Below, one piece after another: positions 10,410 to 27,432 of a stretch of 42,689 nucleotides of DNA. Within the stretch, counting starts at the first letter, position 1, and the number at the start of each line of letters is the position of its first letter. The notes under the pieces were generated by a model that ran no database searches, had not been told where the DNA came from, and was given only the letters and a program-made list of their open reading frames with translations. The stretch is taken from contig JBBFLE010000023.1 in NCBI GenBank assembly GCA_037481695.1, positions 1-42,689 of the forward strand, written 5' to 3'. This DNA is from a bacterium (lineage in GTDB: Bacteria > Desulfobacterota > Desulfocorpusculales > Desulfocorpusculum). The position numbers and the translations under genes are program-made.

Positions 10410-11324
10410 ATGGAACTATTACGGCAAAACATGGGCAGGATCTTGGTTGCCTCCATGTGCTTCTCCATCGTGGGAATCATTATTTTCGGCCTCAATCTTT
10501 GGGAAACACTCCGTACACCGACCTCTGTACCAGCTCCTCCACCCAAGTCTGAAAGAAGCAAGAAAATCCTTGAACTACCCTCTTTGAAATCCAAGGAACA
10601 GTATGATCTTATAGCCAGGAGAAATATCTTCTCCATGGGAGATGCTCCCAAGAAGGCTCCTGCTCCAGAGGCGCCCAAGGCTCCGGTGGAGACTGCTTTG
10701 AACCTGAAATTGAAGGGCACAGTTGTCTCCCCAGGAGGCCTGGCTTTGGCAATGATCGAGGATCCGACTCAACGAAGAGAGGATCTCTACATAGTGGGTG
10801 ACAAGCTCCAGGATGCCCAGATCGTGAGGATTCTACCCAACCAGGTGATCTTGCAAAGATCTGGCAGGGAAGAAACACTAAGCCTTTTTTCAGAAACAAC
10901 CTCCAAGGGAGGGCTTAAGCCTGTTCAGGGGCAACCCCAGGCTCCCTCCTCCAAGCCCACCTCACCCCCCCAGGCACGGGCCCCAGGAGGTCCGGCTCCT
11001 GAGGCTTCCTCGCCCAAGGGGGGACAGCAGCAGGCTGTACAGGCTCTCATGGCCAAGCTTCGTTTAAAGCCTCATTTTGCTGATGGAAAACCATCGGGGT
11101 TTGTAGTGGGGGATGTCCCCATGGGGAGTGTGTTCCAGGCTGCGGGGCTCAAGGTGGGTGACATAGTAGTGGGCATCAACGACGAGGAGGTTCGGACTCC
11201 CAACCAATTGCTCAAGGCCTACAAAGAGGTCTCCCAGGCAGGAGAACTATGGTTAGAGGTTTTAAGGGATGGCCAAGAGGAGACCATCGAGGTTGACATA
11301 GAGACCATCCTCTCCCAGAAATGA
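10410..11324 (+). CDS. gspC: Type II secretion system protein GspC (with C-terminal PDZ domain)
   Basis: A 304-aa inner-membrane protein that links the T2SS inner-membrane platform to secretin GspD. Residues 1-14 are cytoplasmic, 15-35 form one membrane helix (VASMCFSIVGIIIFGLNLWE), then a Pro-rich linker. The homology region runs about 60-160 (YDLIARRNIFSMGD, LKLKGTVVSPGGLALAMIED, DLYIVGDKL). A second linker rich in Pro/Ala/Ser follows, then a PDZ domain (about 215-300, FVVGDVPMGSVFQAAGLKVGDIVVGINDEEV). The order matches canonical GspC. A perfect TATAAT precedes it. It begins the run gspC-gspA-gspB-like; gspD and gspE follow only after the inserted minus-strand module. Confidence 0.9.
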   Translation: MELLRQNMGRILVASMCFSIVGIIIFGLNLWETLRTPTSVPAPPPKSERSKKILELPSLKSKEQYDLIARRNIFSMGDAPKKAPAPEAPKAPVETALNLKLKGTVVSPGGLALAMIEDPTQRREDLYIVGDKLQDAQIVRILPNQVILQRSGREETLSLFSETTSKGGLKPVQGQPQAPSSKPTSPPQARAPGGPAPEASSPKGGQQQAVQALMAKLRLKPHFADGKPSGFVVGDVPMGSVFQAAGLKVGDIVVGINDEEVRTPNQLLKAYKEVSQAGELWLEVLRDGQEETIEVDIETILSQK

Positions 11325-11333
11325 GGGACCAGG

Positions 11334-12929
11334 ATGTATCTGTCTTTCTTCGGACTCAGCGAGCAGCCTTTCAACCTCACTCCAGACCCCAAATTCTTTT
11401 TCATGAGTGAAAGCCACAGGAGCGCTTTCAACCACCTGCTTTTCGGCATCCATGAACGAAAAGGGTTCATGGAGGTGGTGGGAGGGGTTGGAACAGGCAA
11501 GACAACCTTGTGCAGGGCCCTGCTGTCCCAACTAGGAAATGAAGTTGCCACAGCCTTGATCTTGAATCCCTTTCTTTCGGAAAAGGAGCTTCTCAGGTGC
11601 ATAAACCTGGAGTTCGGTCTGGATGGGTCGGGTCGCAGCCGCAATCAGTTTCTGCAACAGCTGAATCATTTTCTTCTTGACAGGGCAGCAAAGGGTGGGA
11701 ATGCCTGCGTGATATTGGACGAGTGCCAGCACCTGGATGCCTCGGTCTTGGAACAGATCCGTATGCTTTCAAATCTAGAAACCAGCAAAGAGAAGCTGAT
11801 TCAGATGGTGCTTGTGGGGCAGCCTGAGTTTCATCAAAGGCTTGGCTCTGAGAAACTGAAGGCTCTTAATGAGAGGATTGAGGTTCGATGCTTTCTGGAG
11901 CCTTTGAGCGCTCAAGATACCGCAGCCTACATAAAACACAGGTTGAGAGTTGCCGGTGCGTCCAAGGAAACACTCTTCACGGATTCGGCTTTGGATGTTG
12001 TTTATCAATACGCCAGAGGAAATCCCAGAAGGACCAACGCCGTTTGCGACCGCGCCATGTTGCTGGCTTATGCCAGGGGAAGCAACAGGATCCACAAAGG
12101 TCACGTCAGGGCAGCCATCAGGGAGGTTTCCTGGACAAAGGAAGGGGTATCCCGGGTTTCTTCTTGGTCTGGATCACGCATGGGGATGATGGCCGCTTAT
12201 ACTTTTCTTACTTTGGCTGGGGTTACAGCAGGGTGGATGGGGGGACGAATTCTGCTTAATCCCACCATGGTTGAGAAGGCAGATATGCAGCAGAAGGATT
12301 CTGCTGAGACACATATGGAATCATCCACCCAGGAACCGGTATGGATTCAAGGGGTGGCCATGGACGCCGTTGCGGTTTATCGGCGTCTTGGCGGCATGGC
12401 CGGTCTGGCACTGCCTGAGTCTGGCGAGAACATGGAGGAATTGGCCAGAAGGGCTGGTTGGGAACCGGTCAGATTGATCGTGAACTATGAGAACTTGCTT
12501 CGTTTCAAGAGGGCCTGCATCTTAGAAACCAGAGTAACAGGCCAGGCATCCATCATGGGAGCCCAATGGGCTGTCTTGAGAGGGATTTCGGAGATGGGGG
12601 TCTGGCTGCAATATGGGGAATCGGCTCTGAGGTTCCTTCCCAGGTGGGAACTGGAGGCTCAGTGGTCGGGGGCGGTTTGGGTGTGGATTCCAGCCGGCAA
12701 CTTTTATCAAAGACTAAGACCCGGGATTCGAGGTGCCAAGGTGGAGTGGCTCCAGTCTGCCCTTGGAAAGCTGGGGCATTGGGAAGGCGAGCCCACGGGT
12801 TCCTATGACAGGTCCACCCGCAGAGCCGTGGCCGAGTTCCAGAAGGCCAATGGTTTGGCCGCGGACGGGAGAGCAGGCCCGCGTACCATTGCCATGCTTT
12901 TACAGCTTTTGGGTGAGGAGGTATCTTGA
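11334..12929 (+). CDS. gspA: GspA/ExeA-like AAA ATPase with peptidoglycan-binding domain
   Basis: A 531-aa protein. Residues 1-270 form an ExeA-type AAA ATPase: MYLSFFGLSEQPFNLTPDP opening, Walker A GGVGTGKTT (K56), Walker B CVILDE (D129-E130), sensor region NERIEVRCFLEPLS. A membrane helix lies near 283-306 (MGMMAAYTFLTLAGVTAGWM). The C-terminal ~70 residues form a peptidoglycan-binding domain (VEWLQSALGKLG, TRRAVAEFQKANGLAADG). In Aeromonas, ExeA with ExeB helps the secretin pass through and assemble across the peptidoglycan. It starts 9 nt after gspC and ends overlapping the TTG of the next gene. The region between helix and peptidoglycan domain (about 330-450) has no recognised domain. 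Confidence 0.88.
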   Translation: MYLSFFGLSEQPFNLTPDPKFFFMSESHRSAFNHLLFGIHERKGFMEVVGGVGTGKTTLCRALLSQLGNEVATALILNPFLSEKELLRCINLEFGLDGSGRSRNQFLQQLNHFLLDRAAKGGNACVILDECQHLDASVLEQIRMLSNLETSKEKLIQMVLVGQPEFHQRLGSEKLKALNERIEVRCFLEPLSAQDTAAYIKHRLRVAGASKETLFTDSALDVVYQYARGNPRRTNAVCDRAMLLAYARGSNRIHKGHVRAAIREVSWTKEGVSRVSSWSGSRMGMMAAYTFLTLAGVTAGWMGGRILLNPTMVEKADMQQKDSAETHMESSTQEPVWIQGVAMDAVAVYRRLGGMAGLALPESGENMEELARRAGWEPVRLIVNYENLLRFKRACILETRVTGQASIMGAQWAVLRGISEMGVWLQYGESALRFLPRWELEAQWSGAVWVWIPAGNFYQRLRPGIRGAKVEWLQSALGKLGHWEGEPTGSYDRSTRRAVAEFQKANGLAADGRAGPRTIAMLLQLLGEEVS

Positions 12930-13792
12930 GCGCCATACAGGAAGCCCTCGAACGAGTAAGAAAAGAAAGGCAGGACTCTCCAGGAAATGATCTCTCCTGG
13001 GTGGAGGTGGCTGCCACAGGCCCCAGGGAAAGATCCACCAGGCCGCGCCTGAAGCAGAGCCTTGGAATACTGGTTCTGGCAGGGGCTGCCGTGGGGATGA
13101 TACTGTCCCAGGTCTCTTGGACCGCCCTAGAGAAATCCATTGGCGGGATTGGGAGCTGGAAACAGCACGACACTTCCGGCTTTCAAAAGGGGGAGCAAGA
13201 CACTCAGCAAGGGGAAAAGCCCATGGAGCCCATAACAAATGCGACCTCATGGGAACATGGGCATCTTCAAGCCACATCAAGAGAATCTGCTGCGCATTCA
13301 CAAGAGAGTATTCAGAAGGCCGTGGCTGAGGCAAAAATGTTGCAAAAAAATGGGGACTCCCAAGGGGCCCAGAGAGTGCTTCTGAGCGTACTTGAAAAGG
13401 AGCCAGAATCAGTGGAGGTCTTGGTGGAATTGGCAGGTCTATACATGAGGGACTCTGTTGATTTTCAAAGAGCCATTGCCCTTTATGAGAGGGCTCTCCA
13501 GAGAAGCGCCCAACGCGCCTCTATCTGGGTAAATCTGGGAGTGGCTTATATGAGGATCGGGGATCCAAGAAAAGCTCAAGAGAAAATTTCTCGGGCTTTG
13601 CAGCTTGATCCATCAATGTTAGAGGCTCACTACAACATGGCTTGCGCTTTGGCCCTGCAGGGCAAAGATCAGGAGGCAGCTGTTTTTCTGCAAAGGGCTG
13701 CCTCCATGGATTCGCGAGTGATGGGATGGGCCAGCCAGGACCCTGATCTGCAATCCCTCAAGGATGTCTTGGTTCAAACCATTCACCATTAA
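12926..13792 (+). CDS. GspB-like membrane protein with TPR domain
   Basis: A 288-aa protein. The first residues (MSAIQEALERVRKERQ) resemble the cytoplasmic start of GspB/ExeB, the partner of GspA. One membrane helix follows at about 51-68 (GILVLAGAAVGMILSQ), then a low-complexity linker. TPR repeats fill about 130-285 (AKMLQKNGDSQGAQRVLL, VEVLVELAGLYMRDSVDFQRAIALYERAL, ASIWVNLGVAYMRIGDPRKAQEKISRAL, LEAHYNMACALALQGKDQEAA). Classical GspB lacks the TPRs, so it may be a GspB/TPR hybrid. The start is TTG at 12926, overlapping the gspA stop as TTGA, with GGAGGT about 4 nt upstream. Role in GspA-dependent secretin assembly is inferred from context. Confidence 0.75.
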   Translation: MSAIQEALERVRKERQDSPGNDLSWVEVAATGPRERSTRPRLKQSLGILVLAGAAVGMILSQVSWTALEKSIGGIGSWKQHDTSGFQKGEQDTQQGEKPMEPITNATSWEHGHLQATSRESAAHSQESIQKAVAEAKMLQKNGDSQGAQRVLLSVLEKEPESVEVLVELAGLYMRDSVDFQRAIALYERALQRSAQRASIWVNLGVAYMRIGDPRKAQEKISRALQLDPSMLEAHYNMACALALQGKDQEAAVFLQRAASMDSRVMGWASQDPDLQSLKDVLVQTIHH

Positions 13793-13897: not shown

Positions 13898-14575
13898 TCA
13901 TCCATTGTCCCAAATCCTGCCATCTCTCATTTTAATGAGCCTGTGCACAAAGGGTGAGTCGCAAACTATGGGATCGTGGCTGGCTATGATTATGGTCTTG
14001 CCTTCTTCTTGGAGAGCCGCCATGTTTTTCATGAATTCCTGGGAAAGAATAGAGTCCAGGTGTGCCGTGGGTTCATCGGCTATGATGATGGGGGGATCAT
14101 TTATCAAGGCCCTGGCTATGGCCACCCTTTGGGCTTCTCCACCTGAAAGCCATTCCACCTTCTGGTCTGCCTTTCCCTGGATGCCGAATCTGGCCAGAAG
14201 CTGGCTGGCCTTTTTGCGCATCTCAGACCATCTTAGGCCCAATGGGTGTGCTGGCAGCATGACATTTTGCATGGCCGTGAGTCCCTGTATTAGAGAGACC
14301 TGCTGAAACATGAATCCGAAGGTCTTCCTTCTGAGCTCTGTTAGGAAGCGTTCAGGCAAACTGGTTATTTCCGTGCCCTGCAGCCATATGCGGCCCGAAG
14401 TGGGACGCGCCATGCAGCCAATCAAACTCAGCAGTGTTGTCTTTCCTGAGCCGCTGGGCCCCTTGAATACCGTTATGAAATTCTCCTGCAGGGAAATGCT
14501 GACATCTTCCAATGCCACGGTCTCATTGGGTTTTCCTTGATGAAACACTTTTCCCACTTTCAGGAGTTGGATCAA
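13898..14575 (-). CDS. ABC transporter ATP-binding protein (LolD/MacB type)
   Basis: A 225-aa ATPase. Walker A GPSGSGKTT (K45), Q-loop FMFQQVSLI, signature LSGGEAQRVAIARAL, Walker B IIIADEPTAHLD and switch IIIASHDP are all intact. The class is that of MacB/LolD/FtsE proteins, which drive mechanotransmission in the periplasm or lipoprotein extraction rather than classical import. It starts with TTG at 14575, overlapping the permease stop (TTGA), with AGAGGA 5 nt before it. It is the last gene of the minus-strand set nosL-147aa-permease-ATPase. The substrate is unknown; a role in copper or envelope-protein handling is inferred from NosL. Confidence 0.88.
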   Translation of the reverse strand: MIQLLKVGKVFHQGKPNETVALEDVSISLQENFITVFKGPSGSGKTTLLSLIGCMARPTSGRIWLQGTEITSLPERFLTELRRKTFGFMFQQVSLIQGLTAMQNVMLPAHPLGLRWSEMRKKASQLLARFGIQGKADQKVEWLSGGEAQRVAIARALINDPPIIIADEPTAHLDSILSQEFMKNMAALQEEGKTIIIASHDPIVCDSPFVHRLIKMRDGRIWDNG

Positions 14576-15720
14576 GCCTGTCCTCTCATCACCCTGTCAG
14601 GATCCATGGTAGCAGCTTTCCAGCAGGGAGTTATTGTCACCAAGGTGTAGGGTACCACGGTGAAAAAGAACAAAACCGCAAGGTCTCCAGCTCTAAGGGA
14701 TGGATACAAGGGGAAACTCGGGTACAGAACTGACCATCCTTTTAGAGCAGGTGCCATAAGGATCCATGAAAAATGGAAAATGTGAAAGTAAGCTGCAATG
14801 GCTCCCAAAAGAAAAGCCGAGAAGGAGATGACCAGTCCTTCAAGACCCTTGAGAAGCATCACATCCCCGGTTTCCCATCCAATGGCCTTCAGGATGCCGA
14901 TTTCCCGCTTCTCATCGGCGCTCAAGCCTGTGGCCTTGTCCCAAGCAAGTATAAAAAAGGCCAACAGTGCACCAACCAGTAGAAGCAGGGCCATGCCACC
15001 TCGCCAATCAAAAAGGGCTCGGTAGGTTCGCAGTATCTCCTCTCTTAGAATGGGCCTAGTATCTGGCAATAGTTGCGTGATTTTTTCGGCCACCGTGGCT
15101 CTTTCTCTGGGGTTTCTAACGGTTACTGCCAGATCTGTTGCGAAACCCTCTGGAAAACCAAAAAGATTCTTGAAATCACCTTGCTCCATGATAATCAAAT
15201 CAGATGTCAACAGCTCCGAGTCCGAGGGGAAGAGTTCCTTTATTCCCAGGGTCATAAAGCCACCCCTGTAGGATCTAAAGGTCAGGCTCTGCTGGTCCTT
15301 TGCGGCGAAACATCTCATAACACCCCGACCCACCAATATCCGGCCTGGCTCAGGACCGTGCCCCGGCAACATGGGAACCATTATTGTGTAATTGGCTCCG
15401 CTTCCGGGGTCATAGTAATAGCCCCAAATCCGGCCATAGACCTCTTTGACTCCCCGGATCCCCTTTATTTGCCCCATGTATTCCAAAGGAATGAGTTCAT
15501 GGCGTCCTGCGGTCATTCTTTGGACCAGGACCTCCGGGCTGTCTTGCAGCAATTTTTCGGCCTGGGCCTGCATGGCTCTGGCAAAAAGAAGCACTGAAGC
15601 CACCCAGAAGACCACCAAGGCATACACCAAAAAGAGTGCCAGGTTCTTGAACTTTCTCCTTCTTAAGGAAAACAGGGCAAAGTCCAAGAGGTTCAGCTGC
15701 CTGCGTAACCAGCGCCACAT
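14572..15720 (-). CDS. FtsX-like (MacB-type) ABC permease
   Basis: A 382-aa permease. An N-terminal membrane helix lies at about 27-46 (NLALFLVYALVVFWVASVLLF). A periplasmic domain of about 190 residues follows, then three helices near 240-260 (GGMALLLLVGALLAFFILAW), 285-312 and 343-370 (DLAVLFFFTVVPYTLVTITP). The segment KREIGILKAIGWETGDVMLLKGLEG is the coupling-helix signature of FtsX/LolE/MacB permeases. The ATG at 15720 follows GAGGTGG; a GTG at 15726 is possible. The stop overlaps the TTG start of the ATPase gene, so a complex is likely. It stands 7 nt after the 147-aa gene. Confidence 0.87.
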   Translation of the reverse strand: MWRWLRRQLNLLDFALFSLRRRKFKNLALFLVYALVVFWVASVLLFARAMQAQAEKLLQDSPEVLVQRMTAGRHELIPLEYMGQIKGIRGVKEVYGRIWGYYYDPGSGANYTIMVPMLPGHGPEPGRILVGRGVMRCFAAKDQQSLTFRSYRGGFMTLGIKELFPSDSELLTSDLIIMEQGDFKNLFGFPEGFATDLAVTVRNPRERATVAEKITQLLPDTRPILREEILRTYRALFDWRGGMALLLLVGALLAFFILAWDKATGLSADEKREIGILKAIGWETGDVMLLKGLEGLVISFSAFLLGAIAAYFHIFHFSWILMAPALKGWSVLYPSFPLYPSLRAGDLAVLFFFTVVPYTLVTITPCWKAATMDPDRVMRGQA

Positions 15721-15727
15721 TTCCACC

Positions 15728-16171
15728 TCACCTTTGAGCCCTGCCAGGAGCTAAGAAGATGCCTGAAGCAACTCGGGAAGATGAGGTCTTGGGTCCCGAG
15801 GTACTCATTCCTTCTGAATCATCCCTCTGAGGATCCTCATGGGAATCAAATGGAAGCACTGGGATCAATGGGCTCCAAAGTGGTTTTTGAAAATGGGGCG
15901 GGGGCAATATTAAAGACCCTGATGGGAAATGATCCAAGGCTCCTGGATGATCCTGAAAAGCCGAGTGCATGTCGGCTACAGAGGGGTGCCTGGTGTAGCG
16001 AGCTTCTGTAAAGAGGCACAAATCCGTGAGTCCATAAGCAATTACTAGGTTTCTCATCCTTTGTACAAATTTTTCTTGGGCTGGCTTGTCACGAGATGCC
16101 TGAACCCCTATTATCGTTAGCCCCATGAGTCCAAGAGCCACTAACAGCAGGAAGGCTGTGGATGGTCTCAT
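15728..16171 (-). CDS. Unknown single-pass membrane protein of the NosL/ABC module
   Basis: A 147-aa protein. Residues 5-25 are one membrane helix or uncleaved signal (TAFLLLVALGLMGLTIIGVQ). A short helical stretch leads to the segment EARYTRHPSVAD and then QDHPGALDHFPSGSL (about 57-86), rich in His, Pro and aromatic residues. The last 60 residues are Pro/Ser-rich. I recall similar His/Pro motifs in small proteins beside NosL-like and ABC genes, but no function is known to me. It starts 7 nt after the nosL stop and ends 7 nt before the permease. The His-rich motif could bind metal; this is a guess. Confidence 0.65.
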   Translation of the reverse strand: MRPSTAFLLLVALGLMGLTIIGVQASRDKPAQEKFVQRMRNLVIAYGLTDLCLFTEARYTRHPSVADMHSAFQDHPGALDHFPSGSLILPPPHFQKPLWSPLIPVLPFDSHEDPQRDDSEGMSTSGPKTSSSRVASGIFLAPGRAQR

Positions 16172-16178
16172 GAGCTGT

Positions 16179-16646
16179 TCAATCCAACTCTTTGATGACT
16201 TGAGGGGTAACCTGCTCGAATCTCAATATGAGTTTCCCGCTGTGATCCCTCATGAACTCTTTGGCATCCTCCTCTTTTAGAAAAGGTATCAATTCCCTTC
16301 CCATTGGGCCCAAAACATCACTTCCCATGACATAGAAAGCTTCCATTGCATTTATTGGCTCAAGGCTGTAATAATCGGTAACGTAGATCTCATGCAGTTG
16401 TTTCCTGCCCAAGCCCTGGACATATTTTTCCGGCTGATTCAGGAACTTAAACATGTCTTTTGCGCCGTCGAAAAAAAAGCTTTTTCCATCCTTGGACTTG
16501 ATCAGTGCTATCCATTCGGGATATTTGCTGACAAACATGCCGCAGACCGGACACTTGTCTTTGGCAGATGGCTTGGCGGGAGAATCTGCCTTGGAGGGAG
16601 TGATCATCAAGAAAAATCCTATTGCCAAAAAGATAAATGATTTCAT
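16179..16646 (-). CDS. nosL: NosL family copper-binding protein
   Basis: A 155-aa exported protein. An N-terminal signal (MKSFIFLAIGFFLMITPSKA) precedes the NosL domain, which opens with DKCPVCGMFV (C32, C35, M37), the Cu(I)-binding motif of NosL. The core then has AKDMFKFLNQPEKY, EIYVTDYYSLEPINAMEAFYV, GPMGRELIPF and EEDAKEFM. Classical NosL is a lipoprotein that supplies copper to nitrous oxide reductase; this one lacks an obvious lipobox Cys. I chose the ATG at 16646, where the signal begins; an ATG at 16664 or longer frames reach into sequence that does not look coding. There is no nosZ in the window, so a general copper-delivery role is more likely. Confidence 0.85.
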   Translation of the reverse strand: MKSFIFLAIGFFLMITPSKADSPAKPSAKDKCPVCGMFVSKYPEWIALIKSKDGKSFFFDGAKDMFKFLNQPEKYVQGLGRKQLHEIYVTDYYSLEPINAMEAFYVMGSDVLGPMGRELIPFLKEEDAKEFMRDHSGKLILRFEQVTPQVIKELD

Positions 16647-17436
16647 CTTCCCGCCTTTGTCCATAGAAATCCGGATCCACTGGAATTTGACGATACCAGC
16701 CAGAGCTTTTAGATTTGCACCTTTTTTGATCATAACCTTCACAAACCAATGAGGCAAGAAGCTACAAAGATCAAACCGGGCTTGAACTTTGGTCAAATTT
16801 TCCTTTTCTCCAGGCGTTCTCCCTGGGATGAAAGCCGCCAGTGCTGCTGGGGATGGTTCAATTCCTTTTTCTGGTTCAGGGCCCTGGGGGATCTCAGATG
16901 GTGGAACAAGGTGTGTTTGGGCACAAAGCAGTTTACCTAAAGATATCACAAAGTTCTAATCTACACACTCGCCTTCGATACTGCAGGCTAGGAGTGATCG
17001 GCTCAAAGGACACAGAGTTTTTGAGCCATGAAGGCTTTACCCAGCAGCTTGATTTAGTAGGGGCATGAAACCTCAACTTGGAAAGCATCTACAACCCTGG
17101 TATTATTCCCTAAAGCATACCTGGATTTGGAACGCGGTTTTGAAAACTTGCGCCAAAGGCAATATTGATGCGAACAAGGCGGCCTTTGGCAGGCCGGTCC
17201 ATGGGACCTGATGGGATCGTGGACTTTGTCTCTGGGAGTCTGCCCTGAGAAGGGTAGGCTTTGGGGCTCAGGTCATGACACATCCGATTCATGGGGCTTT
17301 TTTCCAATGGATAGGGTATCATCCTTTAGGGTTGCGTGGGGGATGTTTTCTTGTAACTGACAGGAGCCTGGCTTTTTCAGGGAGAAGCTTGGGGCATTTC
17401 AAAGGGTTTGAATCTGGCAGTAAACGGGAGGCATAG
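16647..17436. other. Divergent intergenic region between nosL and gspD
   Basis: About 790 nt. An open frame continues nosL upstream to 16949, but its residues do not look like protein and nosL starts cleanly at its signal peptide. The region should hold promoters for both the minus-strand module and gspD. The only clear structure is the inverted repeat at 17152-17190. A TATCAT at 17317-17322 is a weak -10 candidate for gspD. Confidence 0.5.
17152..17190. repeat. 9-bp inverted repeat upstream of gspD
   Basis: GCCAAAGGC (17152-17160) is the exact reverse complement of GCCTTTGGC (17182-17190), with 21 nt between. It is about 250 nt before gspD. It could be an operator or a hairpin in the leader, but a 9-bp match may arise by chance. 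Confidence 0.35.
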
Positions 17437-19872
17437 GTGAAGCATAGATTGCTGGTTCCAGGTACATTTGTCAGCGCTTTGCTTCTTGGGATTTTGATTG
17501 TGCCATACAGCGACAGCCTGGCGGCTAGGCTTGTTGAGGAGGGGCAAAAGCCTGCAACAGAGGCGGCTTCGCAAAAGCAGGAGGCTCCGGCCCGCTCAAC
17601 TCCCTCCAGGAGGCCTGTGCCCAAGAGCCAGAGCCTTCCAATTCAACAGCCCTCCCAGGGCTCCTCAGATCAGAAACCGGATACTGCCATCAACCCAGAT
17701 CAGCCCAAGCGACCGGGCAGCTCAGACCGTATCACCATAAATTTCGACAATGCTGATCTGCGCACGGTCATCAAGTTCATCAGCGAGCTCACGGGTAAGA
17801 ATTTCGTGGTGGATGATAAGGTAAAAGGCACTGTGACCATAATATCTCCTACAGACATAACGGTGGATGAGGCATATCAGGTTTTCCTGTCTGTACTGGA
17901 AATGAAAGGGTTCACGGTCGTGAAAGCCGGGAGGGTTTTAAAAGTCGTGCCATCTGCCGAGGCCAGGTACAGGGACATAGAAACCTTGAGGGTGGAGGAA
18001 TCCATCCGGGTTGGCAGGGAAGACCGGATGATAACACAACTCATACCGCTTCGGCACGCCAGTGCCAATGACCTCAGAGGGCTGCTTACCCCCTTGGTAT
18101 CCAAGGAGAGCCAGATAGTGGCTTACCAGCCCACCAACACCCTGATAATAACTGACTATGCTTCCAATATTCGCAGGCTTCAGTCTCTTATCAGGGAGAT
18201 GGATGTAGAGTCCACAGACGAAAAAATAACGGTTCATCAGCTCAAGTACGCCTCTGCACAGACGCTAGCCACAGAGTTGCTTTCTCTCATGGACAGAGGT
18301 GCTCAGCGCACCGGCACCACGGCGCGCCCCGTGGCCCCCAAGCCGGCCACTCAACCAGCTCCACCGGGGACCAGAGCGCCCAGCCCAGCCCAGCCTGTCC
18401 AAACCGCCCCAGCAGAGGAAACCGCAGCCCTGAGTGCTTCCAAGCTCGTGCCTGACGAGAGAACCAACTCTCTCATAATCATTGCCAGCGAAGCCGAGAC
18501 TCGAAAGATCCTGGAGCTCGTGGAAAAGCTTGACGTGCCCTTGCCCCCTGGGAGAAAAAAGATCCACGTCTATTATCTGGAGAACGCCAAGGCCGAGGAG
18601 GTGCTCCAGGTGCTCTCCCAGCTTTCGGGCAGGGGTGGGGCTGGTGTAGGTTATGGGACCTCATCGGGTTTGGGGACCAGCAGGGCCGGACTGGGAAGCA
18701 CAACAGGGATCGGTTCTTCGGGCTTGGGTGGCTTGGGCTCCACCAGTGGCTTGTCCCAAACCACAGGTTTGGGAAGCAGTGGCCTGGGAACGGGCCGCCT
18801 GAGCGGGCTGGGGACAGCAGGCCCAGGGATCTTTTCTTCGGGCATAGAGAGAGGGGCTAGGGCCGCCATATTGGGGGAGGACGTGGTGGTAGTGGCTGAT
18901 AAAGCCACCAATGCCATAATAGTGATGGCTCCTCCTGAAGATTATGAGACAGTAAAAGAACTCATAAGCAAACTGGATGTTTGGCGTCCCCAGGTACTTG
19001 TGGAGGCCCTCATTGCAGAGGTTTCCCTGACCAAGACCAAGAGCCTGGGTGTGGAATGGCGCCTTGCCGAAAGAGTGGATAGTTCTGGCAGGGAGACAGG
19101 CATTCAAACAGGAACGGGGCCTGCTAATCTGGATTTTTCCACTGCCGCTCAATTTCTTTTCGGGGTCTTCAAAGGGCCCATTACCATAGCCGGTCAGGAG
19201 TTTACAAACTTGAGGGCGGTGCTGAGGGCCTTTCAAAGGGCGGAGGACGTGAACATCCTGTCCACGCCACACATATTGACCTTAAACAATGAGGAAGCCG
19301 AGATAGTGGTGGCTCAGAACATCCCATTTCTCAAGTCCCAAACAGGCACTGCAGAGAGCACCACTCCCGGCACCACGACTCCCACAACAGCGGTTCTCCA
19401 GACCTTCGAGTTCAAAGATGTGGGCATTATCCTCAGAATCACTCCCCAAATTAGCAAGGGCAAGTTCGTGAGACTGAATATTTTCCAGGAGGTCTCGGAT
19501 GTGGGAGCACAACAGGTGCTCACCACAACCCCCACTACTTTTAAGAGACAAGCCAAGACAGTGGTGGTAGTGGAGAACGGTCAGACCGTGGTCATAGGAG
19601 GTTTGATCCAGGACAGCCAGAGGCAGTCCACCTCAGGAGTGCCCTGCCTTGGTAGTATTCCACTGCTGGGCAATCTTTTCAGGACTCAGTCCGTAGGGCC
19701 CCAGGAAAAGAGAAATCTTCTGATTTTCATCACTCCACACATAGTGAACACCCCTGAGGACATGGCCGGGATTACCGAACAAAAGAAAAAAGAGAGGGAT
19801 AAAGACGCCATCCAATTCCAGGAGTGGAGGGGCGAGGATTTTGAGGAAACCCTAGATATGATCCTCAGATAA
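17437..19872 (+). CDS. gspD: Type II secretion system secretin GspD
   Basis: An 811-aa outer-membrane secretin, the exit channel of the T2SS. A signal-like start (about 1-30) is followed by a Pro/Gln/Ser-rich linker. N0 begins near 98 (ITINFDNADLRTVIKFISELTGKNFVVD). N1, N2 and N3 follow, each with an LRHASA/YASA/LENAKAEEVL-type motif. N2 carries a Pro/Ala-rich insert and N3 a Gly/Ser/Thr-rich loop at about 398-470. The secretin core begins around 525 and includes VNILSTPHILTLNNEEAEIVVAQ, TVVVVENGQTVVIGGLIQD and SIPLLGNLFRTQ. The start is GTG at 17437 with GGGAGG about 5 nt upstream. No separate pilotin gene is visible nearby. Confidence 0.95.
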   Translation: MKHRLLVPGTFVSALLLGILIVPYSDSLAARLVEEGQKPATEAASQKQEAPARSTPSRRPVPKSQSLPIQQPSQGSSDQKPDTAINPDQPKRPGSSDRITINFDNADLRTVIKFISELTGKNFVVDDKVKGTVTIISPTDITVDEAYQVFLSVLEMKGFTVVKAGRVLKVVPSAEARYRDIETLRVEESIRVGREDRMITQLIPLRHASANDLRGLLTPLVSKESQIVAYQPTNTLIITDYASNIRRLQSLIREMDVESTDEKITVHQLKYASAQTLATELLSLMDRGAQRTGTTARPVAPKPATQPAPPGTRAPSPAQPVQTAPAEETAALSASKLVPDERTNSLIIIASEAETRKILELVEKLDVPLPPGRKKIHVYYLENAKAEEVLQVLSQLSGRGGAGVGYGTSSGLGTSRAGLGSTTGIGSSGLGGLGSTSGLSQTTGLGSSGLGTGRLSGLGTAGPGIFSSGIERGARAAILGEDVVVVADKATNAIIVMAPPEDYETVKELISKLDVWRPQVLVEALIAEVSLTKTKSLGVEWRLAERVDSSGRETGIQTGTGPANLDFSTAAQFLFGVFKGPITIAGQEFTNLRAVLRAFQRAEDVNILSTPHILTLNNEEAEIVVAQNIPFLKSQTGTAESTTPGTTTPTTAVLQTFEFKDVGIILRITPQISKGKFVRLNIFQEVSDVGAQQVLTTTPTTFKRQAKTVVVVENGQTVVIGGLIQDSQRQSTSGVPCLGSIPLLGNLFRTQSVGPQEKRNLLIFITPHIVNTPEDMAGITEQKKKERDKDAIQFQEWRGEDFEETLDMILR

Positions 19873-19911: not shown

Positions 19912-21687
19912 ATGGCTATGGAAGCGAGACAACATCCTGAGCGTCCAGTTGGAGCTGCAGAATCAAATATTGCCAAGCTGGGACAATCGGGCAGCAGGAG
20001 CTCGGCCCTGCTCGGTGCATTGCGGGAGCAGGGAATAGTCCTGGAACAGAGTCTGGATCAGGAGTTGCAAAGTTTGATGGAAAAGGACGAGTGGGCCCTG
20101 GGGGAAGCCCTAGTGGCCAGGGGTTTGGTCTTGAGAGAGGATCTGACCAAAGCCTGGGCTGTTTTGATGGATCTTCCTTTTTGGCCGGTCTTGGAGGTGC
20201 AGGGGATAGATGGCCAGATGTTATCACAGATACCCATTCATTTTGCCCGGAAACACATGATCGTGCCTGTTAAAATGGTGGATCATGAGATCTGGGTGGC
20301 CATGGCTGATCCGTTGGCTCTGGAAGTTCTGGATGACCTTAGAATAAAAACCGGCTGGAACATCAAGCCGGTCTTAAGCTTGGCCTCAGAGATCTCCAGG
20401 ACCATAAATCGGATCTACCATGAATCTGGAGACACAGCCGAGCAGGTCCTGGCAGATTTGGAGGAGTCGGGAAGCAGTGGTAGGGCTTTGGCCGAGCTGG
20501 AGGAATCCGAGGACCTGCTGGAATCAGCGTCAGATGCCCCGGTTATCAAGTTGGTGAACACCATTCTGAGCGAGGCAGTGAGGTTAAGGGCCAGTGATAT
20601 TCACATCGAACCCTATCAAAAAGAACTCAAGATTCGTTATAGGGTAGACGGGGTGCTCTACAATAGCTTGACTCCATCGCGGAACCTCCATTCGGCCATA
20701 GTCTCCCGCATCAAAGTCATGGCCAAGATGAACATAGCCGAGAAAAGACTCCCCCAAGATGGCAGGATTCGCCTGAGGGTGGCGGAGCGCGATTTTGACA
20801 TACGTGTCTCGACCCTGCCCACCTCTTTTGGAGAAAGAGTGGTGCTGAGGTTGTTAGATAAGACAAGCGTCTTGTTAGGGTTGGAAGAGGTAGGCCTTTT
20901 CCCCGAGCAGATGGAGCTCTTTGAAAGGCTTATTTCGGCTCCCAACGGGATAATTCTGGTGACAGGTCCAACCGGAAGCGGAAAGACCACCACGCTCTAC
21001 GCAGCCCTAAACAGGATAAACTCGCCAGATAAGAACATCATAACCATAGAAGATCCGGTGGAGTACCAGCTTGCGGGAATTGGCCAGATTCAAGTAAACA
21101 GCAAGATAGGTTTGACCTTTGCCAAGGGGCTCCGCTCCATTGTTCGCCAGGATCCTGATGTCATTCTGGTGGGCGAGATTAGGGATACCGAGACCGCTGA
21201 GATATCCATCCACGCAGCCCTTACAGGGCACCTGGTCTTCAGCACTTTACACACCAACGACGCTGCAGGGGCCATAACACGCCTCATAGATATGGGAGTG
21301 GAGCCTTTTCTGGTCTCCTCTTCGGTGAACGCCATTTTGGCGCAACGCTTGGTGAGGGTCATCTGTCCCAAGTGCAAGGAAGGTTACAGACCCAATGCCA
21401 GAACCATTAGGGAACTGGGTATTTCCCAGGATGAGGATGTGGTCCTGTACAGGGGAAAGGGGTGCGATGCCTGCCTCAACACGGGATTCAGGGGAAGGAC
21501 CGGCATCTTCGAGTTTCTGGTTATGGACGACACCCTAAGGGGGCTCATGATGCAGACTTCTGACTCTACCACCTTGCGAAAAGCTGCCATGGCAAGAGGC
21601 ATGAAAAGCCTTAGGGAGGATGGGGTCCAGAAGATAAGGGCCGGCATTACAACCGTAGAGGAGGTCTTGCGGGTCACGGGCGAGTAG
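19912..21687 (+). CDS. gspE: Type II secretion system ATPase GspE
   Basis: A 591-aa hexameric ATPase that powers pseudopilus assembly at the cytoplasmic face of the inner membrane. Residues about 30-170 match the GspE N-terminal (N1E/MshEN) domain. The core has DIHIEPYQKELKIRYRVDGVLY, AEKRLPQDGRI, Walker A GPTGSGKTT (352-360, K358), the Asp box IITIEDPVEYQL, Walker B DPDVILVGEIRD and the His box HLVFSTLHTNDA. The tetracysteine zinc motif CPKC...CDAC is present in the C-terminal domain. Length is near typical (500-600). The first or third codon may be the true ATG; the Shine-Dalgarno site is weak. It follows gspD after 39 nt. Confidence 0.95.
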   Translation: MAMEARQHPERPVGAAESNIAKLGQSGSRSSALLGALREQGIVLEQSLDQELQSLMEKDEWALGEALVARGLVLREDLTKAWAVLMDLPFWPVLEVQGIDGQMLSQIPIHFARKHMIVPVKMVDHEIWVAMADPLALEVLDDLRIKTGWNIKPVLSLASEISRTINRIYHESGDTAEQVLADLEESGSSGRALAELEESEDLLESASDAPVIKLVNTILSEAVRLRASDIHIEPYQKELKIRYRVDGVLYNSLTPSRNLHSAIVSRIKVMAKMNIAEKRLPQDGRIRLRVAERDFDIRVSTLPTSFGERVVLRLLDKTSVLLGLEEVGLFPEQMELFERLISAPNGIILVTGPTGSGKTTTLYAALNRINSPDKNIITIEDPVEYQLAGIGQIQVNSKIGLTFAKGLRSIVRQDPDVILVGEIRDTETAEISIHAALTGHLVFSTLHTNDAAGAITRLIDMGVEPFLVSSSVNAILAQRLVRVICPKCKEGYRPNARTIRELGISQDEDVVLYRGKGCDACLNTGFRGRTGIFEFLVMDDTLRGLMMQTSDSTTLRKAAMARGMKSLREDGVQKIRAGITTVEEVLRVTGE

Positions 21688-21854: not shown

Positions 21855-22496
21855 ATGGGGAATAAAGTCAGGAAGGATGGCCCATCTGACAAGGATCAAA
21901 GGGGGCTTGTTACCCGCGGCAAGCTGGTGGCATTTACTGGGGGGGCCTTGTTGGTGGGATTTGTGGCAGGGGCGATTTTAGGGGGCATATGGGAACATCG
22001 GCTGGCTGGGCGTTTGCCCACGAAGGCCCCAGGTGTGGTTTCGGCACCCTCTGGCATGGCTTCAGTGGAGCAAAGGGGGGAGCTGAAAGCCTTGGAAAGC
22101 AGAGTAGCGAAGGATCCTCAAGACGTGGAGGCCTGGATAAACCTGGGTAACTTGAACTATGACATGGGTAGGCCAGCAGAGGCCATCCGCGCGTATGAAA
22201 AGGCCTTGGCGCTTAGGCCAGGAAATCCGGATGTAATCACCGACATGGGCACCATGTACAGACTCTTGGGGCAACCCCAGAAAGCTGTGGAGCTTTTCAG
22301 AGAGGCTCACAGACTTGATCCCAATCACTTCAACAGCCTCTATAACGAAGGTGTGGTTCTTCTGCATGATCTAAATGATATTGTGGGGGCTGCACGGGCA
22401 TGGGAGGAGTTCCTGAAGTTGGTCCCTCAGGGTGAGCAGTCAGAGCGCATAAGAAAAATCCTCCAGAACCTGAGGTCACAAGGCAAAATACCCTGA
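21855..22496 (+). CDS. TPR-repeat membrane protein
   Basis: A 213-aa protein. A basic cytoplasmic start (about 1-22) leads to one membrane helix (about 25-45, VAFTGGALLVGFVAGAILGGIW). The rest is a short linker and at least three TPR repeats from about 75 to 200: DVEAWINLGNLNYDMGRPAEAIRAYEKAL, NPDVITDMGTMYRLLGQPQKAVELFREA, FNSLYNEGVVLLHDLNDIVGAARAWEEF. It lies between gspE and the diguanylate cyclase. TPR proteins in T2SS loci often act as assembly or scaffolding factors; that is inferred from position only. The ATG follows a GGGGAGA stretch. The stop is 23 nt from the next start. Confidence 0.85.
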   Translation: MGNKVRKDGPSDKDQRGLVTRGKLVAFTGGALLVGFVAGAILGGIWEHRLAGRLPTKAPGVVSAPSGMASVEQRGELKALESRVAKDPQDVEAWINLGNLNYDMGRPAEAIRAYEKALALRPGNPDVITDMGTMYRLLGQPQKAVELFREAHRLDPNHFNSLYNEGVVLLHDLNDIVGAARAWEEFLKLVPQGEQSERIRKILQNLRSQGKIP

Positions 22497-22519: not shown

Positions 22520-23671
22520 TTGGAAGGGGCGAAGAAGGCCGTGAAGAGGATTTCCAAAAAGAGCAACGTGATCTCTTTCAATGAGAGGCTCTTCCAGAGG
22601 GTGCTAAAGGAAAACGAGCTGCTCTTGGCACGGATCAATAATATATTGAGCGTGGCCAGGTCCAACCAAAAAATACAGGACCACTTCGATGCCCTGGAAG
22701 AAAAGATCCTTCGAAGCCGTTCTGTGAGGGAAATGGCTAGAGTCCTGGTGCAGGAGATCAGAAAACGTTTTGGTGTGGAGTGGGTAACCCTTTGCGTGGC
22801 TCTTGATCCGGCTGATGTCTTGAGACATTTGGGATCCACGGGCATAAAGGGGCTTCCCAGTTTCATACGTATAGTTAAAGAAGGGGAGTTGGAAAGGGCT
22901 GCCGAAGAATTGGGAAGGGGAGAGGTGCTTTTGGGAGCCCCAGAACGAAATGTTGGCCTTTTCTTTAGACGGCAAATGATTCCAGAGATGAGATCCCATG
23001 CCATAGTGCCGCTTTACTTCTCCGGCAGGCTGATAGGAACCTTGAATTTAGGCAGCAGGGATCCTCAGAGGTACTGTGCTGATCAAGGCACAGATTTCCT
23101 AAAAAGACTGGGCTACAAGATCTCCTTGATCATGGACAATATCTTGGCTCACCAAAGAGTCCTGGCCATGTCCATTACGGATCCAGTCACGGGAATCCAC
23201 AATCGCAGGGCCTTCGAATCTGCTTTGGAAAGAGAGCTGGGTCGCTCCCGCAGGCATAAGAGTCCCCTTTCATGTATGATCTTGGACCTGGACAATTTTA
23301 AGGAGATCAATGACAGATATGGGCACCTGGTGGGTGACCAGGCCTTGAAACATACAGCAGAAATTTTGCGCGATCACACCAGGGTTTATGATATGGTGGC
23401 AAGATACGGGGGGGATGAGTTTGCTGCCATGTTGCCGCAAACAGGTATTGACTCGGCTGTGAGTGTGGCCCAGAAGTTCCAAGGTGTGCTCAATTCCAGG
23501 CCCCTTGATCTGGGAGGTGTGAAGGTGAGCATCAAGGTGAGCATTGGGATTGCCGGGGTATTGGGCACAGAGGAAATTGGGGCCAAGGAACTTATTTCCA
23601 TTGCCGATAGTAGGATGTATTCAGCCAAGGCACAGGGGGGGAGCAGGGTGGTGTGGCAGGACTCCCAATGA
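22520..23671 (+). CDS. Diguanylate cyclase: DUF484 (GAF-like) plus GGDEF domain
   Basis: A 383-aa protein. Residues about 15-215 resemble DUF484, a GAF-like sensor (helical start, GRLIGTLNLGSRDPQRY and GTDFLKRLGYKIS). A GGDEF domain fills about 220-378: ITDPVTGIHNRRAF opening and the active site RYGGDEF (295-301), which makes c-di-GMP from two GTP. The inhibitory I-site is present as RVYD (288-291), five residues before GGDEF, so the product should limit activity. It follows the TPR gene and overlaps plsB as ATGA. The start is uncertain: TTG at 22520 has no good Shine-Dalgarno site, and a GTG a few codons later is possible. Confidence 0.88.
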   Translation: MEGAKKAVKRISKKSNVISFNERLFQRVLKENELLLARINNILSVARSNQKIQDHFDALEEKILRSRSVREMARVLVQEIRKRFGVEWVTLCVALDPADVLRHLGSTGIKGLPSFIRIVKEGELERAAEELGRGEVLLGAPERNVGLFFRRQMIPEMRSHAIVPLYFSGRLIGTLNLGSRDPQRYCADQGTDFLKRLGYKISLIMDNILAHQRVLAMSITDPVTGIHNRRAFESALERELGRSRRHKSPLSCMILDLDNFKEINDRYGHLVGDQALKHTAEILRDHTRVYDMVARYGGDEFAAMLPQTGIDSAVSVAQKFQGVLNSRPLDLGGVKVSIKVSIGIAGVLGTEEIGAKELISIADSRMYSAKAQGGSRVVWQDSQ

Positions 23672-26400
23672 CAGGGGACCAGAAGATGGGGCTAATGGGA
23701 GGGCCTCTAGAGTTTATGGGAAGAGGGGTGCAGGAAGGTATGCCTGGATTGGGGGGCATGCTCAGAAGGGATTCCCAAGGGCAGGGGGTTGGGGGGGTAC
23801 CTCCTGGGGACGCATGGGTGCCCTTTCACCGTAGCTGCCTGGAAGGCAATTACGGCCCTCTGCTCAGGATGTTGATGCGAATCCTCTTCTCACGGGTGGA
23901 ACCCGTGGGAGAGCAGCTGGATCATATTAGAGAGCTGGGTAATCTGGGATCAGTGGTCTATGTCCTGAGGAGCCGCTCTGATCTGGAAAGCCTTCTTTGT
24001 CACTATCAGTGTAGGAGAAAAGGCCTGCCTGTCCCGCTTTTGGCCTGTGACGGCAGATTGACCCTTTTTCAGTCCCTGGGTTTTTGTTGGAAGAGACTCA
24101 GGGCCAGGCTTTCCCAGAGAGGCGGCCCTGTTGAGGGTAGTCTCATCAGGGAAGCGGTGGCCAGGCGTCAGCATCTGGTGCTTTACCTAGAGGATATGGA
24201 TGCCTTCGAAAGAAGGTTTGTCAGCAGAGGTGTTGACCCTTTCACAGAACTGCTGGTGGCCTGCGAGCAAACAGGTACTCGGGTGTTTTTGGTGCCGCAG
24301 ATTATCATTTGGGACCGAGCCCGTGAGAGAATGGGACTGTTGCTGGATGAACTGCTGCTGGGCAGCAGGGCCAACCCTTCGGATCTGAGGGTTCTTTTCA
24401 ACTTCCTGCGATTCTATAGGAAGGATTCACATATCTTCCACTCCGAGCCACTGGAACTAGGGGAATATTTGAAGGTACAAGAGAACAAAAATAGGGATCT
24501 TGTTGCAGCATCCCTCAGGAAGGAACTCCTTGAGAGGCTGAAAAGGGAAAGAAGAGTTGTGACCGGACCGGTGGTGAGATCTCGACAGGAGCTTCTGGAG
24601 CGAGTTCTCACAGACGAAAGGGTTCAACAAGCCATACAGAGGAGATCACGCAAGAAGGGCAGGTCAGCGGAGTCTGTCAGGAAAGAGGCTTACCGGCTGC
24701 TAAAGGAGATAGCCGCAGACTTTGACCCATTGTTCCTACGCTTCTGGGACTGGGTCATGAGTTGGGCCGTGCGACATCTTTTCGAGGGGTTGGAAGTTGA
24801 TCAGGAGGGACTGAGAAAGGTTAGGGAGGCAGCCCGAAGAGCCAATCTTGTAATAGTGTCGTGTCATAGGAGCCATATGGACTACATGATCATGGGCTAC
24901 ATCTTTTATCACAACTATATGTATCCTCCCCTGACAGCGGCAGGCTTGAATTTGGCTTTTTGGCCCATGGGTTTTCTCTTTCGAAAATCGGGGGCCTTCT
25001 TCATAAGGAGGGATTTCAGGGGCTCGGTGCTGTACCCGGTGATCTTCTCTAGGTATCTTCACACAATTCTGTCAGAGGGCTATCCAATAGAGTTTTTCAT
25101 CGAAGGGGGCAGGAGTCGCTCGGGTAAGATGGTTCTCCCAAAACCCGGATTCCTGGCAATGCTCCTGGAGGGGCACAGAGCCGGGGCATGTAAAGAATTA
25201 GCCTTTGTCCCAGTGGCAATCTCTTATGACAGGGTGATGGAGGAGGGGGCGTACCTGAGGGAGCTGGAGGGTGGGGAGAAACGCAAGGAAAGCCTGTGGG
25301 AGGTGCTGCGAAGCAGAGAGGTCATACGCAGAAGATGGGGCCGTATTTGGGTGAGCTTTGATGAGCCCATTTACCTAAGCGAGTTCCTGGATAGAAGCCT
25401 TAGGAGAGACGGAGCTGGGACAGGTTACAGCAGGCAGCATATTCCTGATCGCCTGGGCTATGAAATTGCCCATAGGATAAATCGGGTTATGACCGTGGTG
25501 CCCACATCCTTTGCTGCCTCGGCGGTGCTTGCCAGTGGTCTGAGGGGATTCCTCTTTGAGGATGTGGTGCGCATAGGAAGGCTACTGTATTGGATTCTGC
25601 TGAGGGAAAGGGCCAGGCTGGCTCGGGTGATGCAAGACCCGGAAAGTGTAGAGAGAGTCCTTTGGGAGAGCCTGGAGTTCTTTCAAAAGGAAGGGATGTG
25701 TAGAAGGTCCAAAGAGGCGTCCGAAGAGTTGGAATCGGAGGAAGAGATCCAGTTCGAGCTGGAGGATAGAAACAGGAGGCAGTTGGATTACTATAAGAAT
25801 GTTATACTCCATCACTTCCTGCCTTACTGTTTTGTGGCTGCCACGGTTCTGTCGGCTGGCAGGTCTGTGGTGTCCAGGGAGTGGATTCTGGGTGAGGTGG
25901 AATTTTTGAGGAGATTTTTTGGGCAGGAATTTGTTTTCTTGCCTGAAGAGGATCTGGGGGAGAGGATAGAGAAGACCCTGGAGGGCATGGTGGCTTACGG
26001 TCTTCTTTGGCGTTCGGGTACGGGATACAGCGCTCCGGCTGGGAGGCGCTTGGAGCTATTGGGTTTGGCGCGGCTCATACAGGGATACTTCGAATCATAT
26101 TTCGTAGTGGGATCTTCCTTGAAGCACCTGGCTCGAAGAAGGCTTTCCCAGAGGATTTTTCTGTGGCGCATCAGGTTAAATGGCAGGAGGCTGTTTCGAA
26201 GCGGAAAGGTGAAGGCGGCCGAGGCGCTTTCTGAGCTAAACTATCTGAACGCGGTCGAGTTTTTGGTTCATGAGAAGATACTGGTTAGGCAGGTGGAAGG
26301 AAGCGTAAGGGAAGGCACATATTATGCCCTGAGCCGGGAGAGGCGTCCCATTCACTGGCGTAGATTGAAGAGGTTCATGGGTGTATACAGGGAGACTTGA
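23668..26400 (+). CDS. plsB: Glycerol-3-phosphate acyltransferase PlsB
   Basis: A 910-aa membrane-associated enzyme that acylates the sn-1 position of glycerol-3-phosphate, the first step of phospholipid synthesis. Acyltransferase motifs appear in order: block I CHRSHMD (399-405, the H-x4-D catalytic pair), block II FRKSGAFFIRRDF, block III FFIEGGRSRSGK (Glu479, Arg482), block IV FVPVAISYDR. The long N-terminal and C-terminal helical regions and overall length match PlsB rather than PlsY or PlsC. The ATG at 23668 overlaps the cyclase stop (ATGA), with AGGA 6 nt before it; a GTG at 23653 is an alternative. The first ~45 residues are Gly/Met-rich and encoded by G-tracts. Confidence 0.92.
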   Translation: MTGDQKMGLMGGPLEFMGRGVQEGMPGLGGMLRRDSQGQGVGGVPPGDAWVPFHRSCLEGNYGPLLRMLMRILFSRVEPVGEQLDHIRELGNLGSVVYVLRSRSDLESLLCHYQCRRKGLPVPLLACDGRLTLFQSLGFCWKRLRARLSQRGGPVEGSLIREAVARRQHLVLYLEDMDAFERRFVSRGVDPFTELLVACEQTGTRVFLVPQIIIWDRARERMGLLLDELLLGSRANPSDLRVLFNFLRFYRKDSHIFHSEPLELGEYLKVQENKNRDLVAASLRKELLERLKRERRVVTGPVVRSRQELLERVLTDERVQQAIQRRSRKKGRSAESVRKEAYRLLKEIAADFDPLFLRFWDWVMSWAVRHLFEGLEVDQEGLRKVREAARRANLVIVSCHRSHMDYMIMGYIFYHNYMYPPLTAAGLNLAFWPMGFLFRKSGAFFIRRDFRGSVLYPVIFSRYLHTILSEGYPIEFFIEGGRSRSGKMVLPKPGFLAMLLEGHRAGACKELAFVPVAISYDRVMEEGAYLRELEGGEKRKESLWEVLRSREVIRRRWGRIWVSFDEPIYLSEFLDRSLRRDGAGTGYSRQHIPDRLGYEIAHRINRVMTVVPTSFAASAVLASGLRGFLFEDVVRIGRLLYWILLRERARLARVMQDPESVERVLWESLEFFQKEGMCRRSKEASEELESEEEIQFELEDRNRRQLDYYKNVILHHFLPYCFVAATVLSAGRSVVSREWILGEVEFLRRFFGQEFVFLPEEDLGERIEKTLEGMVAYGLLWRSGTGYSAPAGRRLELLGLARLIQGYFESYFVVGSSLKHLARRRLSQRIFLWRIRLNGRRLFRSGKVKAAEALSELNYLNAVEFLVHEKILVRQVEGSVREGTYYALSRERRPIHWRRLKRFMGVYRET

Positions 26401-26421: not shown

Positions 26422-26455
26422 TACGCGCAGTTGAAAACTGCGCTATCTTTGTTTT
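26422..26455 (+). terminator. Intrinsic terminator after plsB
   Basis: GCGCAGTT (26425-26432), loop GAA, AACTGCGC (26436-26443) form a perfect 8-bp stem, extended by flanking ATA/TAT with one bulge, and followed by CTTTGTTTT. It lies 22 nt after the plsB stop and closes the gspD-plsB transcription unit. Confidence 0.8.
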
Positions 26456-26649
26456 GAAAAATTAGTAGGACTTCATAGGAGGAAACGAAGTCGGAGGTAG
26501 ACGTACTTAGTAGATTTATCTGGCAATAATTGCGTGATTCCTGATGGCAAAAAATGTAGCTCGGTAACATATTAATATTACAAAAGAAAGCGGTTTGGAG
26601 ATCAGGTCTTCAAAAGAGCTTGATTTAGGTGGGTAGAAAGTGTAGAAAA

Positions 26650-27432
26650 ATGGCCATGCCTAAGGTGATTGCCATCACAAACCAGAAGGGTGGAGTGGGG
26701 AAGACCACCACAGCCATAAATTTCTCTTGTGGTCTCTCCAAGAAGGGCAAGAGGGTTCTGTTAGTGGACCTGGATCCCCAGGCTCATGCCACCATAGGAC
26801 TGGGGGTAGAGCCAGGCAGCTTTCAGAAGGCGATCCATGACGTGCTTGTGAACAAGAGGGCCATGGAGGAAGTTGTTTTGAGCACCAGGTTCTCCGGGCT
26901 CTTCCTGGCTCCGTCTCATATCAGACTGGATAGGGCAGAGCAGCAGCTCATACCCGAGATGTATCGTGAGAGCATACTGGAGCGGTCTCTACAAGGATTG
27001 GATTATGACTTCATTGTCATAGATTGCAGACCCACACTTGGTATCCTGACAGTGAACGCTCTGAAGGCGTGTGATTTCATAATAGTGCCCTGCGAGATTG
27101 CCCGTTACTCGCTGGAAGGGTTTGCCGATTTGATGGATACCATAGCGACAGTCAAGAGTGCGGATGGGTTTGATATCGGAGAGCGGGTGCGGATACTGTT
27201 GACAAAGTATGATTCCCGAAAAAGCGTGTCAATTGAGTGGGTCATACAACAGCTGGAGCCCTTCCGACACATGCTATTTCAAACCAGAATCAGACAGAAC
27301 GAGGCCCTGAATCAGGCCCACATGGCCATGGAGCCCATCTTCCAGTTCAAGCCCAACAGCTTTGGGGCCGAAGACTACTGGCAGCTCACAGAGGAATTCC
27401 TAAACCAATGCCTTCCATCAGGGAAAAACTAG
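26650..27432 (+). CDS. parA: ParA family partition ATPase
   Basis: A 260-aa deviant-Walker ATPase that binds DNA non-specifically and moves ParB-bound DNA. It begins MAMPKVIAITNQKGGVGKTT; Lys13 and Lys18 are the signature and P-loop lysines. Switch and Walker B motifs follow as LVDLDPQAHAT and FIVIDCRPTLGILTVNAL. The usual DxPP reads DCRP here, a mild oddity. The C-terminal part has the Soj-like QTRIRQNEALNQA. There is no N-terminal DNA-binding domain, so it is the short, chromosomal-type ParA. I place the start at 26650 or the Met two codons later; an upstream GTG frame lacks support. It is followed by parB with 25 nt overlap. Confidence 0.9.
   Translation: MAMPKVIAITNQKGGVGKTTTAINFSCGLSKKGKRVLLVDLDPQAHATIGLGVEPGSFQKAIHDVLVNKRAMEEVVLSTRFSGLFLAPSHIRLDRAEQQLIPEMYRESILERSLQGLDYDFIVIDCRPTLGILTVNALKACDFIIVPCEIARYSLEGFADLMDTIATVKSADGFDIGERVRILLTKYDSRKSVSIEWVIQQLEPFRHMLFQTRIRQNEALNQAHMAMEPIFQFKPNSFGAEDYWQLTEEFLNQCLPSGKN

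Follow-up and report, generated by a model that had tools for sequence, protein, structure and literature searches.

Does a diguanylate cyclase gene that runs into plsB, downstream of type II secretion system (T2SS) genes, mark a circuit between cyclic di-GMP (c-di-GMP) and phospholipid synthesis, or a gene order inherited within one lineage? The question is raised by a contig from a Desulfocorpusculum genome (Desulfobacterota; assembly GCA_037481695.1, contig JBBFLE010000023.1), analyzed over its full 42,689 nucleotides and called the window below. An earlier note on positions 22520-26400 had proposed that co-expression of these genes would link c-di-GMP, membrane growth and secretion. The reading favored here, and thought fairly probable, is an ordinary class-specific operon combining T2SS genes, a soluble sensor cyclase and plsB, in which the cyclase would not regulate PlsB directly. 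Each part is of a known kind; the arrangement is new to us, and ordinary in what can be shown.

The cyclase gene is on the forward strand and stops at 23671. It may start with a TTG at 22520 or a GTG at 22541, either being possible, and is given here as 22541..23671. Its product has Pfam matches above cut-off to a GGDEF domain (PF00990, 145 bits) and to DUF484 (PF04340, 64.4 bits, with a cut-off of 24.2), and both the GGDEF motif and the RxxD inhibitory site are intact (RVYDMVARYGGDEF), bearing out the earlier note's description of the gene. The metal-binding aspartate, the FKxxND residues and the GG[DE]EF signature are intact, and identical, in the cyclases of the window's genome (G000) and two relatives (G001 and G002), which make up the class in the genome collection, with one genome per genus; the RxxD site, five residues ahead of GGDEF, reads RVYD, RAPD and RRYD in the three. 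In an alignment of 36 rows, with the three class members included, its Arg and its Asp are each present in 35. The enzyme is apparently active and product-inhibited. Its N-terminal part, residues 9-192, is covered by 3e98 (“GAF Domain of Unknown Function,” E 9.7e-7), the sole match to this part among 55 matched solved sequences. An AlphaFold model built from a two-row alignment was poor (mean pLDDT 55) and was set aside. No tetratricopeptide repeats (TPR) were detected in the cyclase by Pfam, nor any membrane domain, and the protein should be cytosolic.

The PlsB-type glycerol-3-phosphate acyltransferase (23668..26400, forward strand) scores above cut-off for PF19277 (GPAT_C, 213.2 bits) and PF01553 (Acyltransferase, 74.2 bits), and the solved GPAT 9vuq matches it with E 4.3e-64. 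It falls below the cut-offs of the NCBIfam PlsB equivalogs (TIGR03703, 415.8 vs. 618.5 bits; NF003441, 421.7 vs. 610 bits), which is why it is labeled PlsB-type rather than as a curated equivalog. Some 40 N-terminal residues have no counterpart in the relatives, so the exact start is a prediction. In the window's genome, whose assembly is rated 100% complete, one profile search for each gave a match to PlsY (contig C6) and none to PlsX. With PlsY present and PlsX not found, the acyl-phosphate route seems to be incomplete, which would probably leave PlsB as the working acyltransferase.

The two genes meet in an ATGA stop/start overlap at 23668..23671, read in the DNA, and follow gspD, gspE and a TPR gene on the same strand; on both points the earlier note was right. 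The overlap, which it read as translational coupling, is not kept by the relatives: the junction measures -4 bases in G000, +14 in G002 (counted to the earliest ATG, though plsB may open there at a TTG that overlaps the cyclase stop) and +66 in G001. Coupling is therefore a feature of the window's own genome at most. The pair itself is more widespread, with the order TPR gene, cyclase, plsB in all three class genomes, and thus in three genera; it is therefore not confined to a single genome, the case that the earlier note would have counted as a refutation. Nine GGDEF matches in 4.1 Mb make a cyclase beside plsB unlikely to arise by luck in one genome; three genomes with the pair amount to one event, through inheritance. 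Preserved order is, moreover, the local background. Eleven upstream open reading frames (ORFs a-k, 988-13792) are collinear between G000 and G001, as is the run from gspD to plsB, and at least five of the eleven are functionally unrelated (nifU, nifS, a glycerophosphodiesterase (GDPD) and two acyl-CoA dehydrogenases). Since these are equally collinear, the cyclase-plsB order in G000 and G001 cannot on its own be taken as a sign of a circuit.

Outside the class, the pair was sought in an evenly drawn sample of 395 genomes of the phylum, which is not the whole phylum, using locus flanks mostly of 1.5 kb and up to 10 kb, several of them shortened by contig ends. Cyclase homologs were found in 136 of the 395 at E 1e-35 or better, many by their GGDEF part only, and PlsB matches in 117 at E 1e-40 (with the first 40 residues removed from the query). 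Forty cyclase-homolog loci (L081-L120) gave no match to PlsB, gspD, gspE or the TPR gene; the last three of these loci match the GGDEF part only. As read by eye, thirty-two genomes outside the class have both proteins at these thresholds. None of the 30 with positions given has them close together (27 on different contigs; three on the same contig, at least 154 kb apart), with second cyclase matches sometimes not among the positions given. Conversely, the cyclase query at E 1e-3 found nothing in 71 non-class loci that had been chosen for a match to PlsB or a weaker acyltransferase match (26 of L004-L030, 22 of L042-L063 and 23 of L128-L150, some genomes possibly repeated; L026, which lacks a PlsB hit, and the class's own L002, L003, L041, L126 and L127 are not counted). 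Among ten further PlsB loci, L202 alone shows a GGDEF match; it lies 2.5 kb beyond PlsB, in an ORF with a PAS-like start, as read by eye, and is not an ortholog of the cyclase. No cyclase ortholog was thus detected beside PlsB in any locus outside the class in the phylum sample.

Homologs of the cyclase do occur in the phylum, at ~28-37% identity and with the same two-domain layout, near full length in most of those fetched, but with other neighbors. Several are preceded by ppdK-like and endonuclease III-like genes. The homologs of families f9 and f42 (L083, L087, L094, L100, L103, and L107-L110; genes named from sequence) share such a surrounding, a second recurrent setting for the cyclase: they lie after a ppdK-like gene, mostly with an endonuclease III-like gene between and a glyS-like gene before.

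Direct regulation of PlsB, by the cyclase or by c-di-GMP made beside nascent PlsB, would couple c-di-GMP to phospholipid synthesis. The adjacency with overlap and the presence of the pair in all three class genomes are in its favor, and PlsB is listed as a binding target of a different guanine nucleotide, (p)ppGpp (PMC6416229). Pfam, however, finds in PlsB two acyltransferase domains only and no known c-di-GMP-binding domain, and the relatives do not keep the overlap. The open PMC papers searched disclosed, in their titles and abstract openings, neither a cyclase-plsB operon nor a link between c-di-GMP and PlsB, in agreement with the earlier note, which knew of no described operon of this combination. 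Direct regulation is accordingly considered very unlikely, and much the same small chance is given to a dedicated pair, in which the sensor cyclase and the sole working acyltransferase would belong together, c-di-GMP or the cyclase setting the rate of phospholipid synthesis along with envelope secretion.

The cyclase might instead switch type II secretion by supplying c-di-GMP to GspE, its partner in the gene cluster. GspE does carry an MshEN domain (PF05157), a known c-di-GMP receptor fold, and a T2SS ATPase of Pseudomonas aeruginosa binds c-di-GMP (PMC5013675). The motif given in that paper, RLGxx(L/V/I)2xxG(L/V/I)2x4LxxxLxxQ, was scored over two repeats of 11 positions each. GspE reaches 8/11 and 7/11 in the window and 8/11 and 6/11 in G001, and in both genomes Arg1 and Gln24 are lost from both repeats, a difference from the MshE/MshEN ATPases with which it shares the domain; in Xanthomonas, changes of key residues are reported to have cost GspE its binding (PMC5013675). 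With these losses GspE was set aside as a receptor, and a secretion switch through it is the least probable of the explanations considered, a slim chance at best. Better candidate receptors in the window's genome are three other MshEN ATPases, at C2:205249 (L121; 10 and 9 of 11), C1:232474 (L122; 11 and 7) and C15:40046 (L124; 11 and 8), the weaker C1 repeat also being without the Arg and the Gln; the best that a fifth MshEN protein (C3) reaches is 6 of 11. There are also eight PilZ matches, all on contigs other than the window's. The degenerate GspE motifs, together with the PilZ matches and the MshEN ATPases with better-kept motifs on other contigs, suggest that the signal probably acts away from the cyclase operon. 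Along with the unconserved overlap and the preserved local background, the GspE motifs weaken the link among c-di-GMP, membrane growth and secretion that the earlier note had drawn.

Upstream of the cyclase, gspD (17437..19872; T2SS secretin, TIGR02517, 589.6 bits with a cut-off of 351.35) is followed by gspE (19912..21687; T2SS ATPase with the degenerate MshEN motifs, TIGR02533, 719 bits with a cut-off of 630.25) and by a TPR protein that has a single membrane segment near its N terminus (21855..22496; Pfam TPR families), which is kept in G001 and G002; all are on the forward strand. The gaps are 39 bases from gspD to gspE, 167 to the TPR gene, 44 from there to the cyclase (counted from 22541), -4 to plsB and 252 from plsB to parA. 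Strand order and short gaps make co-transcription from gspD to plsB plausible. A weak terminator-like hairpin follows plsB (26425..26443, forward strand), but a promoter and terminator scan of the region gave no excess of sites over shuffled sequence (11 terminator-like sites, vs. a mean of 13.0 in shuffles), so the operon limits are drawn from spacing and strand.

The cluster starts further upstream, outside the range of the earlier note, with a gspC-like gene (10410..11324; T2SSC and PDZ domains, PF11356, 56.5 bits, above cut-off; NCBIfam GspC models below theirs) that has an ortholog in the same order in G001. Next are an ExeA-like AAA ATPase with a peptidoglycan-binding domain (11334..12929; PF13401 and PF01471, with TIGR03015 below cut-off), whose G001 ortholog (45%) lies two genes ahead of gspD, and, overlapping it by 4 bases, another TPR protein (12926..13792; TPR families), to which the G001 ORF directly before gspD is a partial match (44%, residues 139-280). 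These three forward-strand genes are separated from gspD in the window by an opposite-strand block (13898..16949) encoding an ABC ATPase, an FtsX-like permease, a small ORF and NosL (PF05573; the ABC ATPase and permease named from sequence, without a family search). For the ABC, permease and NosL ORFs no counterpart was found in the 19-kb G001 stretch carrying the cluster, which is continuous at this position, through either insertion in the window's genome or loss in G001. At the other end, gspF, gspG, gspK and gspL, all above NCBIfam cut-offs, are on contig C21. Outside the class, gspF follows gspE in 21 of 28 loci, some of which may be pilus ATPases, and none of the 28 gave a match to the TPR gene, cyclase or PlsB in the 0.9-1.5 kb downstream, a flank long enough to reveal the TPR gene but no more than the beginning of the cyclase. 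On this evidence the joining of gspE to the TPR gene, cyclase and plsB looks peculiar to the class.

Such a layout could be maintained, without direct binding, by selection for co-expression: secretin, ATPase, cyclase and lipid enzyme would be kept on one message as an envelope module, and secretion capacity, surface signaling and membrane supply would increase in step. The short one-strand gaps fit, as does an order kept in G001, and in G002 as far as its contig goes; the NosL block lies before gspD in the window and leaves gspD-plsB unbroken, and plsB probably encodes the working acyltransferase. The equal collinearity of the unrelated nifU, nifS, GDPD and acyl-CoA dehydrogenase genes, on the other hand, speaks against it, as does the failure to find the pair in the rest of the phylum sample. 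A module of this kind is a minority possibility, well behind the ordinary operon though clearly ahead of direct control of PlsB or GspE.

In the TPR protein ahead of the cyclase, hydropathy peaks at residue 24 (2.25), and the net charge is +4 before the membrane segment and +2 after it; by the positive-inside rule, these charges hint that its TPR part is probably periplasmic. DgcP, a cyclase of P. aeruginosa, reportedly includes a DUF484-like part, though a search for DUF in passages of PMC7033161 found nothing. It works with FimV, a membrane protein of the pilus apparatus that carries TPRs (PMC7033161), and to that extent resembles the window's cyclase and its neighbor. The TPRs of FimV are cytoplasmic, however; a periplasmic TPR part would argue, weakly, against FimV-like contact with the cyclase. 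In the rcbAB operon of Vibrio vulnificus (PMC12282931) a TPR gene precedes a GGDEF gene, as in the window, but there the cyclase has TPRs of its own, by which it and its partner protein interact. DUF484 was not found together with GGDEF and diguanylate cyclase in the open literature; of the two papers that mention both DUF484 and c-di-GMP, PMC9427106 lacks DUF484 in its main text.

In the ordinary operon favored here, the 3′ end of a class-specific T2SS cluster (gspC, ExeA-like ATPase, TPR, gspD, gspE, TPR) would have become joined to a soluble sensor cyclase and plsB, and the cluster genes would be co-transcribed. To judge from its families, the cyclase would take a signal through its DUF484/GAF-like domain, make c-di-GMP as a dimer through its GGDEF domain and be shut off by its product at the RxxD site. 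The c-di-GMP would act on receptors encoded elsewhere, among the eight PilZ matches and three other MshEN ATPases. PlsB, probably the working acyltransferase, would come last on the shared message, and the cyclase would exert no direct control over it. The neighborhood would then be an inherited rearrangement after gspE, with gspF, gspG, gspK and gspL elsewhere, and not a biochemical circuit.

Several points tell against this account. The cyclase-PlsB order persists at 48-57% cyclase identity, leaving room for selection on the pair, and the block collinear with G001 ends just after PlsB. The class sample is three genomes, and gspD-gspE ahead of TPR-cyclase-PlsB can be checked in two of them, G000 and G001, the G002 contig starting within the TPR gene. 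The operon as one transcript is itself a prediction.

Beyond plsB, the window's genome has ParA/ParB, whereas G001 has an unknown gene, an aminotransferase and ThyX; 12 tested window ORFs downstream of plsB had no match in three G001 stretches. The ParA and ParB ORFs (26629-28256) overlap as listed, ParB opening at 27237 within ParA and its ParB_N domain beginning at residue 96. A second ParA-ParB pair is on contig C6, and no parS-like site was found in the window with up to three mismatches to the consensus. In family f13, all six genomes with a PlsB match (L066, L067, L197-L200) carry parA-parB downstream of plsB in the same orientation, no more than ~0.7 kb past the point where that match ends. 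As a deeper linkage this was rejected: f13 ParA matches the C6 ParA at 54-58% and the window ParA at 37-41%, and since the ParA types differ, these adjacencies do not go back to one ancestral pair.

For c-di-GMP signaling in this organism, the degenerate MshEN motifs of GspE argue against the easiest route from c-di-GMP to secretion. A dedicated cyclase-PlsB circuit, if true, would tie c-di-GMP to the opening reaction of phospholipid synthesis, and if PlsX is truly lacking, the start of that synthesis would depend on PlsB. Because plsB is likely the last gene of the T2SS/cyclase message and probably encodes the working acyltransferase, knockouts of the genes ahead of it may have polar effects on an essential gene.

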